Assembly (NCBI GenBank): GCA_010093515.1
Contig: MU001675.1
Coordinates: forward strand, 1,011,371 to 1,075,370
Length of the DNA stretch: 64,000 nucleotides
Source of the DNA: Lineolata rhizophorae
Lineage: Eukaryota; Ascomycota; Dothideomycetes; Lineolatales; Lineolataceae
Reading direction: 5' to 3'
Made by a program: the position numbers and the translations under genes. This document shows, one piece after another, positions 41,204 to 49,954 of this stretch. The notes below the pieces were generated by a model that was not told the origin of the DNA, did not search any database, and worked only from the letters and a program-made list of their open reading frames with translations. Within the stretch, counting starts at the first letter, position 1, and each line of letters opens with the position of its first letter.

Positions 41204-44200
41204 CTACTCCCCCTCCTCACTCGCATCCTCAACAGTCGCCCCCCTGGGCCTAGCCACCCCTCCAGGCGCCCCCTCCTCAGCTCCCGCCACCCTCCTCGCT
41301 GCCGCCTCCCCCGCCTTCCTCCTCGCTTCCTCCTCCCCTCCCACCGCGCCCTCCACCAACCGCCCATTGCCCTCACGCACATCCTCGTTCGCCTCCCCAG
41401 CCATTCGCGCCTCCCCATCCTCGCCCCCATGCACCCTCCCCGCCGCCTCATCCACCAACCGCACCGCCTCCGCGACGGCCGCCGCGCCACCATCGCCATC
41501 GCCATCGCCGTCGTCACCCTGCCCCTGCCCCTGCCCCTGCCCCTGCCCCAGCCACCACTGCGGCACCTCCATATCCCGGAGACGCGCGCGCTCGCGCTCG
41601 AGCTCCTCGCGGCGGGACTCGCGCCCGCGCCGCGCGGCCGCGGCCTGCGCCTGCACCGTCGCGAGGCGGTCGCGCATCTCGGCGAGGCGGTGGGTGGGGC
41701 TGCGAGGCGGGGGCTGCGGGGGCGCCCCCTGCGCCAGGGGAGACGCGTTCGGTTGGAGCTGGTGGTGATGCTGGCCGTCCACGGCCGACTGTTGTTGGGT
41801 TGGCTGCTGCTGTTGTTGGGGCGGCGGGGGGGGAGGGGGAGGTTGGAGCTGGGCGAGGAGGTCGGCGGTGGAGGAGGCGTTGTTGGCGCCGGGGGCGGCT
41901 GTGGGTTGCGGTTGGGGTTGGAAAAGGGCGCCGCTGCCGCCGCCGGGACGGACGGGGCTGTAGGTGCGGGAGGCGGGGACGCTGGAGGCGCCCCGCGCGG
42001 CGGCCGCGGCCGTGGGAGGGAAGCCTGGCTGGGGGAAGGTTGGCTGGGGGTTGGCTTGATGCTGTTGCCGATCCCCCCCCACAGAAGTCGCCGCCGAGTC
42101 TGGCATGGCCGGTTGCTGTGTGCCTGGCGGTGAAAACCAGGATGGCCTTTCACCCCTCGTATACATCGGCGTCAAGCGCCATCCTTCTGGCAAAGCGACT
42201 CCTTCAGGCAGCCTCGGATCGCCCGGGCCCATGGCCTGGCCCGGCACCAAAGGCTGCTGCTGCTGTCGTTGCTGGTCTCGGCGGCGCTCTCTCGAGTAGT
42301 TGTGCCAGTCCCGTAGGTTCTGGTTCGGCTCGAGACCTTGCTGGAGTTGGGCCCTGACACGATCGGCTCTGGCTCTGATACCAGCGATCCAGTTCTCGTT
42401 TCCAGCACCAGGGACATTACCGCCGGCCGCGCCAGCTCTCGTTGCACGGACCTCTTGCCACTGGCGACTTAGCCTGTCCAGCTGTTCCTGCGCAATGCCC
42501 AACCGCGCCATTTCCGTCATGATCCTATCTTGCAGTTGCTGAATCTGCCTCTCGATGGATGTGCCCGCCACCGGCCCTCCACCAAGGTCACCTCCTCCAA
42601 GCCCCAATGCACCTAGCCCACCACCAGCGCCTTCCGCTCCCGCATTCGCGCCTCCCGCGTTTGCTGCGTTCATCCGCGCCGCCGCAGCCGCTAGCGTAGG
42701 CGCAATCGGCCCGTCCGGATGTGGAAATGCGTGCGGAAGCTGCTGGTCACCCCCGCCAGCGCCGGCGAGATTCTGGCGCTCGAACACAATCTGGATCGGG
42801 CCCAACTGGAACGTTCGTCTCCGCACGCCCGGCCCGGGCCGATTCCCCTCGCCACCACCGCCGCCTCCTCTATCGTTCTCGTCGTTGTCGGCACCGCCGT
42901 CGCGTCGGTCATGCGCACCGGCTCCGCCGGCGCCTCTATCACGAGCGTGCCGGTGGCGGTGTCTGCGGCCGTGGTTGGCATCCGCGCGCGGGACGACGCT
43001 GCTGCGGCACGTGGGACAGACTTGTTGACGCTCGAGCCAGCTCCTCAGACATCCGAAGTGCAAAATATGACCGCAAGGTAGCTTCTTCGGCTTTTGGCGC
43101 TCGCCGAGGGCCCGCATAGTCGCCTCGTCGACTTCACCGTTTGCTCCAAGGCCTTGCGTCTCGATGCCGCCGCAGTACATGTCAGATCGGCATATGATGC
43201 AGGTAGACTCGGTGGCGAGGTCCTCGGGAGTCGCGTCTGGGTAGCGGCGCTGCATGTCGCGTGTAGCCTCTATGTAGCGGAAGTAGGAGCGCACGCGGCC
43301 GGCGAAGGCGCGGAAGGTAAGATAAAGGTCGCGAAGGAGATGGATCGGAGTGACGGAGAAGAGGACGAGAATTATGAAGTAGGCGCTGAAGAGAAGCAGC
43401 TTCACAAAGTCTGGTATCCGCATCAGTGATATGTTCCTCAAATTTGTATAGGGAAATGGGCGGAAAAGAGCGGCCACGTACCTGAAATTATGTCCACAAT
43501 GAAGAGGCACTGCCCTTTCTTCTCCCATCCCGGGACGTCGACGTCGTTCTCGTCAACATCTTCTTCACGCGGTACGCCGGCCAACGCGGCGTTCACAGCC
43601 GCGTCGGACCCGTTTTCGTTCTCCCGTGCAATGCGCTCACGCTGCGCCCGCACCTGCGCCTTTTTGGCTTTGACCATCTTCACAGTCTGCGCGGCCGTAA
43701 TATTCCCGTCTACGATGAAAACCATATATTTCAACGCTGAGAAGACGGCCGAGAAGAGCAGGATGATGAACTCGAGCGAGAACATGAGCATCATGCTCGG
43801 CCTGGCCTCATCCAGCACCATCATGATGACCGTCCGGGTCATATAGTACGAGAACGAGGCCGTTATGCCCAGCGCGGCGCAAAGGCGCGTGTGGAACAGG
43901 CGCGGGTTTCGCGGGGGTTGCTGGTCGAGCTGCTCGATGCGTTTGTCGGTGATCCAAAGCCAGACCTTCGCGTTGAGGGACGACACCAGCAAGAATATCG
44001 ACCACGGTCCGATCTCATCCCGGAACATGGTCATGGCAAACAGCGTCTCGATGATATTGAACCAGGCGCGTTCGCGCACCTGCTCGGCCTCGAGAACGCG
44101 CAGTTCGCCGAAGACGAGGCGCTGGAGGTTGATGGAGAGGGCCCCGGCTAAGAAGAGGGCGAAGTTGGCCAGGACCTGGGCGGAAGAAAAAAAACCAGAT

Positions 44201-44460: not shown

Positions 44461-45669
44461 CCTCGCGGGTCGCTCCGACCGCGGAGCTCGCTGCACTCAC
44501 GAACAGCTGGTGGATATGGCGATTACGTTGAAAAGGCGGAGGCGGAATTGCGATCCATGCAGAGTGGTGGCAGAGTACGTTGCACAAGGAGAGACGAGCG
44601 GTGAGAAGGCAAGCTAGTGGTTGGAGAGGTTCGGAGCGCTCCGCACAGGAAGCGGGCATTGAAGACAGCTGTCGTCGCCGAAATGTCGCGTTTGCGTCCA
44701 CGCTGGGCCGCGCCGGCCGCCGGGTAGCCAATCGGGAAGGGCCGAACGAGCTACCGTGGTCGTTTGCGCCACAACGCCACCCGTGGCGCGCATCACGCCG
44801 CACCGATCTTCCCTTGTTTCCACCACCACCACTCCCTCCGCTCGTTCGGACTCGGGATAGACGGCAGCAGTGCGGCATAGGCAGGCCAACATCGCCATTG
44901 GATGCTTGCCAAGAGCGGAGTTGGCAGGCTGCGCACTGTAGTCTACCGCGGCACGTGAAGCCACGCTCGTGGAGCTTTGCGGGGACAAATTCCCCGTTAA
45001 GACTACATCGATTCTTAGACTCCTTTCGTGGTGACTGACATCATCTAGCTGGCCTCCGCGGCAACCTACATAGCGCCGCAGACGAAGCTGAAGATCCGTT
45101 CTCCGACCGGATGTGCCGAACCCTTGCGCCTGTCGGTCTCGGACCGAGACGCGCCAAGAGGCTCTGCAACCCCGACGATCCGCAGAGCCCCCGAACCGCC
45201 GACTGAGAACATTTTCGTAATAAAGTTCACTCGGGCGGTGCTCTGGACGGCTCCATTATCGGCCCGCAAAGACAGCATGCCTGTTCCCGGTCCGTCAGTG
45301 TCTGCGGCGGCCTATCACAGGCAGCGTTAACGCCAAGAAGGCCGTAGAGGGGCAGGTGTCGTCGGGACGTCGTCCACGAGAGGTTGCTGTGGGGTACGCG
45401 GGGAGCGGGGGTGCCTCGCATTAGCCTGGCAGGTTAGGCCGCGTTTTCGAGCAATGCAACCAGGGCGGTCTATGATGAGGAGGCTGATCGGTAAGGCGAG
45501 AGCGATGTCGTCGTCCGGGGATATTTAAAGGACGATGCCAGGGTAACCCAGAGTTTGGCGGGTAGAACCACGGCAGCTGGACTCTACAATCATTGTGTGC
45601 GAGTGCCCGACCTTCATAGAAGCCGACTTACTGGATCAATTGGTCGCGCCTCAGTTCGGCAAGCCCTCA
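44461..45669. promoter_or_regulatory. Divergent promoter, HRD1 / GH32
   Basis: About 1.2 kb. A TATA-like ATATTTAAAG at 45521-45530 lies 140 bp before the invertase ATG. Open frames on both strands are short and unrecognised. A GTG-started frame runs into the invertase from 45555 but is out of frame with its signal peptide. Confidence 0.5.
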
Positions 45670-47695
45670 ATGCTTCCTGCATGGATGTACGCTGCGGTCG
45701 TGGGTGCAATTGCACCGCTGGCTGCGGCGCAAGCCCAACTCACGGCCGACATGATCGAGAGCATGGGAAACAACAGCCTCTTCACTCGTTGGCGCCCGAT
45801 ATCTCATTTCATGGCTCCGGCAGGATGGATGAATGTCAGACTATGCCCGGTTCCCATTCTGCTTCAGAGGCTCTCACTGATCTCTCAACGCAGGACCCGT
45901 GCGGCCCCATGTACGACCCTATGAGAGATACTTACCACCTGTTCTATCAATGGCACCCTAATCATGTCAATTGGGGCAATATTTCCTGGGGCCATGCGAC
46001 CAGCAATGATCTCATCACGTGGGCCGACGTGGGTGGCTGGCAGGACGACCAAGCTCAAGCCCTTGGAACGGGTCCAGTTGGTTCCTATGACGGGCTAGGA
46101 ATCTTCTCCGGTACGGCGCAGCCCGTGAATCTTCACGGAGAAACCGACGGAAACCTGACCATTTTCTACACCTCGGTTTCGCGACTCCCGACCAACTATG
46201 CGCTTCCGTACCTGCCAGGAACGGAGTCGCAGAGCATCGCGACGAGCAGCGACGGCGGCCTCACGTGGCAGAAGTGGGAAGGGAACCCCTTCCTGGACGA
46301 TCCGCCCGACGGCTGGAACATTACCGGCTGGCGCGATCCGTTCGTCGAGCCCTGGCCGGCCATGGACAGTCTCCTGGCCCACGACTCGCCGCACTACTAC
46401 GCCGTGTACGGCTCCGGCATCCGCGAGGCCATCGGCCCCCGCATGCCCTTCTACAGCGCGCCCGCGCGCGACCTCGCGAACTGGACCTTCCTGGGCGCCC
46501 TGTGGGAGCCCGCCGCCAACTCGAGCCTCGGCTCCGTCCTCGCCACCGGCAGCAACGGCTTCAACTTCGAAGTCTCGGGCTTCTTCTCCCTGCCGGACCC
46601 CTCGGGCGCTCTCCACTTCTTCGCCCAGATGGGCTCCGAGGGCGGCAACGTCTCCTTCCACCCGTCTGGTCACTGGGCCCTCTGGACCGAAGGCATCGTC
46701 ACCCGCCGCGAGAACGGCTCCGTCGAGCTCACGCCCGCCTCCGCAGGCGCCGGCGACTGGGGCAACCTGTATGCGCTGACATCCTTCGTCGACGGCAGGA
46801 ACGGAGATCGCCGCGTCCAGTGGGGGTGGAGCCCAGAGGACGTCGCCGAGGAAGGCTTCGCGCTCACGCAGATGGGGTACCAGGGCGCGTTGGCGCTGCC
46901 GCGCGAGCTGTTCGTGCACGTGGCGGAGGGCGTGGCGAACTCGGACGACGGCGCGCTCACGGAGAAGGGAAACGCGCGTGCGGTGCCGAATGCGGATGGG
47001 ACGTCGTTCACGGCGTACACGCTCGGCATCAAGCCGCTTCCCGACGTGGTGGAGGGGCTCCGCGCTGGTGCGACGGCGAAGGAGTTTGATGTCGGCGCCT
47101 GTGCCTCGAGTAGCATGCTGATGCAGCAGGGCAGCGATCACATGGAGCTCGTGGCCTCGTTCTCGCGACGCTCCGCTGGGGCGCGTGTCGGGTTCACGGT
47201 TGCGGCCTCGCCGGACGGCGAGGAGTATACGAACGTGTACTACGAGCCGGCGAACCACACCATCGTCGTGGACCGCGCCCACTCGTCTACCATCTCGCAG
47301 TTCGCTAATTTCAGCGTTGTCGGGTATTTTTATCCGTACACGCTGGCGGAGACGGGCGAGCAGGAGGAGATTAATATGACGGTGTTTCTCGACGGGAGCT
47401 TGCTCGAGGTATATGCGAACGATAGGTTCGCGCTTACGACACGGATATACCCTAGTCGGGAGGATAGCGGGGGATTTGGGGTCTTCGTGGATGGCGAAGG
47501 GGCTAGCGCAGAGGTAAGCACCGTGAAGGCTTGGCTGGGCACAGCAGATGTGTGGCCGGAGAGGCCGGCGGACAGTAGCAGTGAACTGGTGTGGGATTCG
47601 GCGGAAGAAACGGGGAACTACAGTAGGTTATCCCTTGTACCATGCGAGGGAAGAGGTTCGCTAATCGTGTCTTAGCTTGGTGGACAGGGAATTAG
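45670..47695 (+). CDS. Secreted GH32 beta-fructofuranosidase (invertase/fructanase)
   Basis: Exons 45670-45834, 45894-47622 and 47676-47695 (introns 59 and 53 bp) predict 637 residues. A signal peptide (MLPAWMYAAVVGAIAPLAAA) directs secretion. The five-bladed GH32 catalytic domain has the nucleophile Asp in WMNDP (D56, at the first splice junction), the transition-state stabiliser RDP at 202-204 and the probable acid/base Glu in FEVSGF (E281). A beta-sandwich domain follows from about 460. Many N-glycosylation sequons are visible. It would hydrolyse sucrose or fructans outside the cell. I end the protein with a 20-nt third exon giving NYTWWTGN, which fits the family; without splicing the frame stops at 47675 with an unrelated tail. 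The promoter carries a TATA-like element. Confidence 0.9.
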
Positions 47696-47922: not shown

Positions 47923-49954
47923 TCAGGATGCCTTCTTCAATACGGCGTCTACAACCTCAATGATGCGCATTAGCTCCTCGTCTTTCATGGGCTTACCCAT
48001 GACCTGCACTCCGCATGGGCCGCCTTCCATGGCCTCCTTGTTGTCTGCGAGTGCGAATCAGTCCTAACTTTAGTGTGGCTACCGTTGTTCACTGACTTAC
48101 ATGGTGGCGTATATTTGACATCTCGAACGTATGGTTCATCAAGCTTCTTGTCTGCCTTGAGGAACGGCAGCGCTGCGGCAGGGTACTAATAGCACACGAA
48201 CCCACGATTAGCTCTCCTATGCCTTGAGTCATCACGCACGGCGGTAAAACTTACGTCCAGCAAATTCGCCAGCACCGTGTACGGCGGTAGGCCATACATG
48301 TCATGCGGCGGAGGACTCCCCTGATATGTCGGCATGAGAATAGCATCCAACCCCTCCCGCACAATTACGTCCTTCCAAGCCTTCTGCGTCATCCGCCTCT
48401 GCACATTCAGCCCGTACACATCATCCAGGCCGGGCGCCCAGTCAGCCAACTCCGGATGCCGCATCGTCGCGATGCTCTTGATGAACGGCTCCCCGCTCGC
48501 GGCGACATGGCCCACGGCCGTCTTCTTCGGATCCATGGTGAAGTACTGCCACGATAGTTTCAACGTCGCGGCAATCGACGGCACCGCATCGTCCGGGATC
48601 GGCACGACCGCGTGGCCCGCCGCCTCGAGCGCCTTCGTCGCCGTCTGGAGCGCCCGCAATGCCACCGGATGCACCGGGTACGTCGCCTTCTCCTCGACGA
48701 ACAAGCCGATCCGCAACGTCTTCCCTCGCGGCACGGGCGGGACCTCTCGCCAGGGCCCACCAACCGCAGCCTCGTCCCGCGCCCACGGATCGTCCCCGAT
48801 CGCGTTCTTCAGGAACAAGCCGAGGTCGCGCACGCTCGTGGCCAGGGGTCCGCAGCACGGCGCGATGGGGAAGGCGCCCGGCCGCGCCGGCGACGTCTGC
48901 CCCGTGTAGGGCACGCGGTTGGCGGTCGGCTTGAAGCCGTAGATGGCGTCGCACAGGGCGGGGATGCGCACCGAGCCGGCGATGTCCGTGCCGACGCCGA
49001 GGAGGGAGCCGCGCAGCGCTATCAGCGCGCCCTCGCCGCCAGAGGAGCCGCCGGCCGTGAGGTTAAGGCGGTGAGGGTTTAGGACGCGGCCGTAAATGTT
49101 GTTTTCGGAATCGGCCGTCTACGGGTGAGATTAGGGAGGATTCTCGGTCATGGGTTTGGGAGGGGAACGGAGACTGGATATTGGAAGAGCGAGAATCTCA
49201 CCATGAGTGTTTGAGGGAGGTTGGTCTTGACGAAGACGACGGCGCCGAGTTCAAGCAGAATGTCGACGATTGTTGCGTTCTGCTTTGCTAGGCCTCGTGA
49301 TATGAACGACACGAAGCCGATGGTGCTGGCCACACCCTTGACATCGTATCCTAGGACAATTGTGAGCTAGTCGTGACAGCAAATCTGTGGTTTCTTATCT
49401 TACCATCCTAGAAATGCGGCATGATTAGATGACGTTCACGAATGTAGAAGACAGCGATGTTTGACGTCTACCTACCTTGAGGCTAATTGGCAGGCCATGA
49501 AGAGGTCCCAGTGCCTTCCCCTCCTTAGACATGTATTCGTCTAGCATCTTTGCCCTCTCCAGGGCTTGATCGAACATCATCTCTGTCAAGCATCCCGTCT
49601 AGAAATATCCCACGTCATTAGTTCCACCAACTTTCAATTGGTCACAGATATCCAGTTCTTCCTTACCAACTGATGCGCAATCGCTGCGCGTTTGCAGAAT
49701 GCCGTTGCTACATCTATCGCCTTGATTTGACCGCTCGCGAGCTCGTCAAGCAGCGCGGTGGCGTCGTAATTCTCGGTGAGGGCAATGTCATCTTCGGAGA
49801 GGAGCCCACACGTGCGCGGCACATGCATGACGCTGACGTCCGACGATTCATTCACATCCTTGAGAAATGATGCATCGAGGCGCCATTCTTGCGGCAGTTT
49901 GGCGTCCCTTTCGGCACGCTTTGCGGCCGCGATTGATTGCCAGTCCGTAGACAT
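47923..49954 (-). CDS. Amidase (amidase-signature family, acetamidase-like)
   Basis: Seven exons, 49954-49667, 49598-49476, 49407-49404, 49350-49202, 49118-48255, 48185-48101 and 48044-47923, predict 544 residues with all phases closing. The Ser-cisSer-Lys triad is visible: Lys137 at the end of LPISLK, the cis-Ser in GGSSGGEG (about S213-S214) and the nucleophile S237 in GTDIAGS. The enzyme should hydrolyse carboxamides, resembling fungal acetamidases or general amidases; the substrate is not predictable. No signal peptide is seen, so it is probably cytosolic. The third exon is only 4 nt (GATG), needed to join Lys137 to the conserved DGYDVKG. The ATG at 49954 is the first true ATG. The gene converges on the invertase with 227 bp between stops. 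Confidence 0.87.
49404..49407 (-). other. Predicted 4-nt micro-exon of the amidase gene
   Basis: GATG is preceded by a TTTCTAG acceptor and followed by a GTAAGA donor, between introns of 68 and 53 bp. Skipping it would shift the frame after the catalytic Lys137. Including it restores the D-G-Y-D order typical of the family. It is predicted from sequence only. Confidence 0.65.

Follow-up and report, generated by a model that had tools for sequence, protein, structure and literature searches.

The window analysed here is a 64,000-nt stretch of the genome of Lineolata rhizophorae. An amidase gene lies on its minus strand at 47923-49954, and the spliced model comprises seven exons that encode 544 residues. 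The six introns of the gene are all of the GT-AG class and are 53-83 nt long. Two further loci lie nearby. A long plus-strand open frame at 45495-47675 is convergent with the amidase gene and presumably resembles an invertase-type GH32 enzyme, and minus-strand open frames at 41204-44199 carry a CIICR..CPTCR motif and resemble what we take to be a membrane RING ligase of the Hrd1 type. The features of the amidase gene are as follows.

49667 to 49954, minus strand: exon 1; ATG at 49954, 3' end reading ..AIAHQL
49599 to 49666, minus strand: intron 1, 68 nt; GTAAGG..CTAAT..TTTCTAG
49476 to 49598, minus strand: exon 2, ..GPLHGLPISLK; its final codon is the catalytic-lysine codon by alignment, and it ends in phase 0
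49408 to 49475, minus strand: intron 2, 68 nt; GTAGGT..CTAAT..TTTCTAG
49466 to 49471, minus strand: alternative donor GTAGAC, overlapping the intron 2 donor, 4 nt inside intron 2
49404 to 49407, minus strand: proposed micro-exon GATG, 4 nt; Asp codon plus first base of a Gly codon
49351 to 49403, minus strand: intron 3, 53 nt; GTAAGA..CTCAC..TCCTAG
49202 to 49350, minus strand: exon 4, GYDVKG..LPQTLM; its G codon is completed by the micro-exon base
49119 to 49201, minus strand: intron 4, 83 nt
48255 to 49118, minus strand: exon 5, with the amidase signature motifs GGSSGG and GTDIAGS
48186 to 48254, minus strand: intron 5, 69 nt
48101 to 48185, minus strand: exon 6
48045 to 48100, minus strand: intron 6, 56 nt
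47923 to 48044, minus strand: exon 7, with the stop codon inside

The 544-residue product matches the amidase profile PF01425 with 300.1 bits (cut-off 27) over positions 2-444 of 445, the cut-off being the curated one. We take PISLK, GGSSGG and GTDIAGS to contribute the Lys, the cis-Ser and the Ser of the amidase triad, respectively. All three motifs are in register with those of three solved amidases (alignments shown), namely 6kvr, a fatty acid amide hydrolase entry, 8wv2, an amidase family protein, and 4hbp, fatty-acid amide hydrolase 1.

The problem posed by this gene is one of phase. The last base of exon 2 is 49476 and the first base of exon 4 is 49350, and exon 4 requires one base ahead of GA-TAC-GAT to read G-Y-D-V-K-G. 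When exon 2 is joined directly to exon 4 at these outer sites with GATG skipped, the result is a frameshift and an early stop. The tetranucleotide GATG (49407-49404), which is preceded by ..CATTTCTAG and followed by GTAAGATAAG, is 1 modulo 3 in length and thus brings exon 4 back into frame with exon 2. Its inclusion gives K-D-G-Y-D-V-K-G and an intact 544-residue amidase, and the predicted mRNA reads ..AGCCTCAAG-GATG-GATACGATG... An acceptor AG stands directly before the four bases and a donor GT directly after them (TTTCTAG-GATG-GTAAGA), and the flanking introns are of viable size (68 and 53 nt), each with a branch site (CTAAT and CTCAC). The earlier note, which left the strand unnamed, had described GATG as lying between a good acceptor and a good donor just after the amidase catalytic lysine. 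The strong acceptor TTTCTAG and the donor GTAAGA, in introns of 21.2 and 19.2 bits, bear out the first statement, and the second holds on the minus strand, where exon 2 ends in PISLK.

The residue that follows the lysine is almost always acidic in relatives. The same genome contains at least 15 other amidase genes by profile, according to our grouping of at least 25 matches, and 13 of them show the site in tblastn (L020/L021 and L026, with no tblastn match at E 1e-3, were left out). The lysine is kept in 12 of these 13 homologues and is Gln in one; the position after it holds D in 12 and E in one. The alignment is gapless through eight residues past the lysine in 12/13 own-genome homologues, which marks the expected length of the segment; L015 has a 3-residue insertion six residues beyond the lysine, and L011 has one extra residue slightly farther along (multiple alignment A1). 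The Gln belongs to L015 (1951-2148), where it takes the place of the catalytic lysine (VVVQDN) while the following Asp is kept, and this amidase-like homologue is possibly an inactive or altered amidase. Bacterial relatives were taken from alignment A2, as the best 80 of at least 529 loci; none were found when they were sought from a single full-length protein. In these 80 loci the lysine is invariant (80/80) and the next residue is D in 40, E in 39, T in one and V in none, so that an acidic residue follows the lysine in 79; an indel near the site occurs in two. Overall, 92 of 93 relatives have an acidic residue there (13 from the same genome and the best 80 of at least 529 bacterial loci).

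Other ways of joining exons 2 and 4 were enumerated under two limits, a minimum intron length of 40 nt and splice boundaries no more than 30 nt inside either exon, keeping only solutions that were in frame and free of stops. There are 22 of these, nine with a single intron and 13 with two. The earlier note had called the GATG arrangement the only one it found that keeps the frame and restores K-D-G-Y-D. This stands, as KDGYDVKG is given by one of the 22 solutions, the GATG one; the frame by itself is kept by others too. None of the nine single-intron solutions gives K-D. A second double-intron solution also gives K-D, with a 30-nt exon, a 41-nt second intron and the donor GTCACG. It was rejected because the altered sequence KDGKIRNHRFAGVAST, reading on as GKIRNHRFAGVAST, keeps K-D but swaps Y-D-V-K for foreign residues. 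The conserved protein at the length of its homologues is assembled by GATG; one other solution, an intron at 49471-49351 that gives KVGYDVKG, keeps the length with Val in place of Asp. As judged from the sequence, length by itself fails to separate these two models. Among internal exons of 1-28 nt in the 125-nt interval, with introns of at least 45 nt, only GATG restores the frame without a stop.

Splice sites were scored with donor, acceptor and branch-site matrices built from 78 introns predicted by coding potential within 278 kb of the genome, with the amidase gene masked. This model superseded an earlier one that had given only 15 introns. The training set is noisy and self-trained, without RNA support, and carries a score floor of 15.5 bits, so that any comparison with the training minimum is circular and scores below it are low partly by construction. 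At 21.2 and 19.2 bits, introns 2 and 3 fall inside the range of the other four introns of the gene (17.7, 19.5, 20.4 and 24.3 bits). As a positive control, the homology-supported intron ranked first among in-frame single-intron alternatives at 4/4 of these other introns, with the runner-up within about 2 bits at two of them. Two details speak against a micro-exon: none of the other five introns has a branch site scoring as low as the CTCAC of intron 3, and the intron 2 and intron 3 donors rank at percentiles 28 and 51, respectively, of the training set.

The rarity of such an arrangement was estimated by shuffling the 125-nt interval 20,000 times with its dinucleotide composition preserved; the first 6 and last 25 nt were fixed and both introns were required to be at least 45 nt. 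A frame-restoring exon of 1-28 nt of any quality appeared in 5,728 of the 20,000 shuffles, one whose two introns each reached 15.5 bits in 127 (28 of them with a 4-nt exon), and one as good as the real micro-exon at its weaker intron in 2. A 4-nt exon that gives K-[DE] appeared in 57/20,000 shuffles at any score and in 0/20,000 at 15.5 bits or more. There are 394 AG-N4-GT sites on both strands of the window, and only GATG is equally good on both sides. Additionally, 53 GT..AG stretches of 110-140 nt whose outer sites were comparable were searched, regardless of frame, for internal exons of 1-30 nt flanked on both sides by introns as good as these. The sole positive was the amidase locus, and the other 52 gave none.

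Judged on reading frame, conservation of the protein, the quality of the splice sites and the length of the introns, the micro-exon is supported as the best explanation of the locus. We regard it as highly likely that GATG is a genuine 4-nt exon, included constitutively, and that the fungal amidase-signature gene to which it belongs is functional.

The reading that comes closest to it is a single 121-nt intron at 49471-49351 that uses the overlapping donor GTAGAC and yields K-V-G-Y-D at unchanged length. It keeps the frame and the length of the homologues, its acceptor is strong, and its PF01425 score stays high at 293.5 bits, compared with 300.1 for the micro-exon model and 285.4 for a variant with LTIVL ahead of G-Y-D. 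Its junction would read ..CTCAAG-GTAG-GATACG.., and the spliced sequence contrary to it is ..CTCAAGGATGGATACG... Its donor, at 0.9 bits, ranks under every one of the 78 training donors, and the whole intron reaches 12.2 bits, although scores beneath the training range are partly by construction given the 15.5-bit floor. The total is 7 to 9 bits under either micro-exon intron. Any GTNNGT donor automatically carries a GT four bases into the intron, and GTAGAC is hence no independent signal. Val after the lysine is found in 0/93 relatives (13 own-genome and the best 80 of at least 529 bacterial loci), the intron is 121 nt long against 53-83 nt for the others in the gene, and the strong in-frame acceptor and donor pair inside it goes unexplained. 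We consider this reading unlikely. The same donor enters a second proposal, in which GATG would be subject to a regulated switch: inclusion would give Lys-Asp, skipping with the first donor would give a frameshift and an early stop, and skipping with the +4 donor would give an amidase of the same length with Val. The last outcome follows from the way in which the +4 donor (GTAG-GTAG) exactly offsets the 4-nt exon. If the switch were true, a single pre-mRNA could yield the active enzyme, a modified one or a transcript that is discarded. GTAG-GTAG, with its overlapping donor, arises as a by-product of the GTNNGT consensus, and we hold such regulation to be improbable.

A decayed gene or an assembly error would place a frameshift beside a single intron and make GATG a coincidence, and a loss of 4 nt near an exon edge would indeed produce the same phase mismatch. 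The rest of the 544-codon model is open and the four other exon junctions are frame-consistent, and a frame-restoring micro-exon as good as this one arises in only 2/20,000 shuffles; decay or error is thus very unlikely. Still harder to credit is the use of the first donor with another acceptor. Two such introns keep the frame. The intron at 49475-49367, which places L-T-I-V-L before G-Y-D, scores 10.8 bits and has a poor branch site. The intron at 49475-49337 scores a respectable 17.2 bits and joins K to G-V-A-S-T (junction ..CTCAAG-GGTGTG..); it is 139 nt long and removes D-G-Y-D-V-K, six residues adjoining the catalytic lysine, a deletion seen in 0/13 own-genome homologues. A complex twin intron (stwintron) would consist of an outer intron whose donor or acceptor is split by an internal one, the two being spliced out in succession so that no exon is left between them. 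It has fungal precedent in the composite introns with consecutive splicing reactions described in the available literature and offers 357 nested in-frame solutions, the best with 18.2 bits at its weaker step, but it is scarcely believable here: in all 357 the lysine is followed by V, Q, N, T, G or L and in none by D or E, so that no nested solution pairs a split splice element with the right protein, the best-scoring one deletes D-G-Y-D-V-K, and the intron 2 AG and the intron 3 GT are each complete alone.

In the micro-exon reading, GATG would supply the Asp codon right after the catalytic lysine together with one base of the next Gly codon, and it would be flanked by two ordinary short introns, probably of the U2 type. 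As 4 nt are too short for acceptor and donor factors to sit on together, the introns are most likely removed one after another, and constitutive inclusion by two consecutive splicing steps is the most likely course. With either order of removal, the second step would still find complete sites. An intron at the site is found in 0/13 own-genome homologues (tblastn), hence introns 2 and 3 are specific to this gene among those compared, and the presence of two introns four bases apart needs explaining. The idea that intron 3 arose by copying of intron 2, or of any other intron in this gene, was rejected, since 15 intron pairs were aligned and none rose above shuffles. For a one-nucleotide exon, Nelson and Syed propose that a cryptic exon was adopted to repair the frame within a motif (PMC12940212). 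By analogy, such an adoption could account for GATG. A separate observation concerns intron 4 (49201-49119, after ..LPQTLM), which has an apparent counterpart in the paralogue L018, where the match breaks after LPQSIM. The two may occupy an old position common to both genes, unlike introns 2 and 3.

Very small exons have been described in other fungal genes, and the comparisons below follow the parts of the cited sources that were available. The closest is the one-nucleotide exon of the CYP621A P450 genes of Fusarium, found in 20 orthologues and covered by reads in two species (PMC12940212). Like GATG, it is a tiny phase-correcting internal exon in a conserved enzyme motif, with two short introns replacing an over-long single one, and it was inferred with an intronless homologue as length marker, the approach used here for the amidase. 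Unlike it, the amidase exon has 4 nt rather than 1, is known from sequence alone in one genome, and does not belong to a P450. Two 3-nt exons in the lipS genes of Dactylellina haptotyla are mentioned in passing (PMC5639578); they too are exons of very few nucleotides in a filamentous fungus, and differ in being a multiple of three. An 8-nt micro-exon of CYP5141A1 lies in a conserved motif (mentioned in PMC12940212), and exons of at least 6 nt occur in P450 genes of Phanerochaete chrysosporium (PMC1184071). Both are very short exons of enzyme genes, as here, but they are longer and basidiomycete. Xlr2 of Trichoderma contains a 20-nt microexon that is glucose-regulated and was missed by the gene model (PMC11121469); it resembles GATG as a frame-changing micro-exon of a filamentous fungus, and differs in its length and its regulation by glucose. 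Stwintrons are composite fungal introns removed by consecutive splicing reactions (PMC6616335, PMC5639578). The amidase locus shares with them a composite intervening sequence and, probably, two consecutive splicing steps, whereas both of its introns have complete sites and leave four coding bases between them. The available text of a further stwintron article (PMC9024468) contains no micro-exon terms, and in that of PMC3990503 such terms occur only as a read-mapping setting. A literature search conducted mostly at the level of titles and the beginnings of abstracts found no micro-exon in a fungal amidase. The earlier note had called internal exons of this size very rare in fungi. They are rare, yet the documented fungal cases include exons of 1 nt, supported by RNA reads, of 3 nt and of 8 nt, so GATG is rare but has precedent. 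It is very probably a real further case of a known fungal phenomenon in a different enzyme family.

The consequences reach beyond this gene. A gene finder unable to place a 4-nt exon would call it truncated, frameshifted or Val-substituted. More cases could be sought by screening for a conserved motif with a phase mismatch and an intron of about twice the usual length that contains an internal AG-Nk-GT. If confirmed by RNA, the 4-nt exon would join the few fungal exons below 6 nt found in the literature search, again within a conserved catalytic motif, and it would support the persistence of such exons where the motif tolerates no other repair of the frame.
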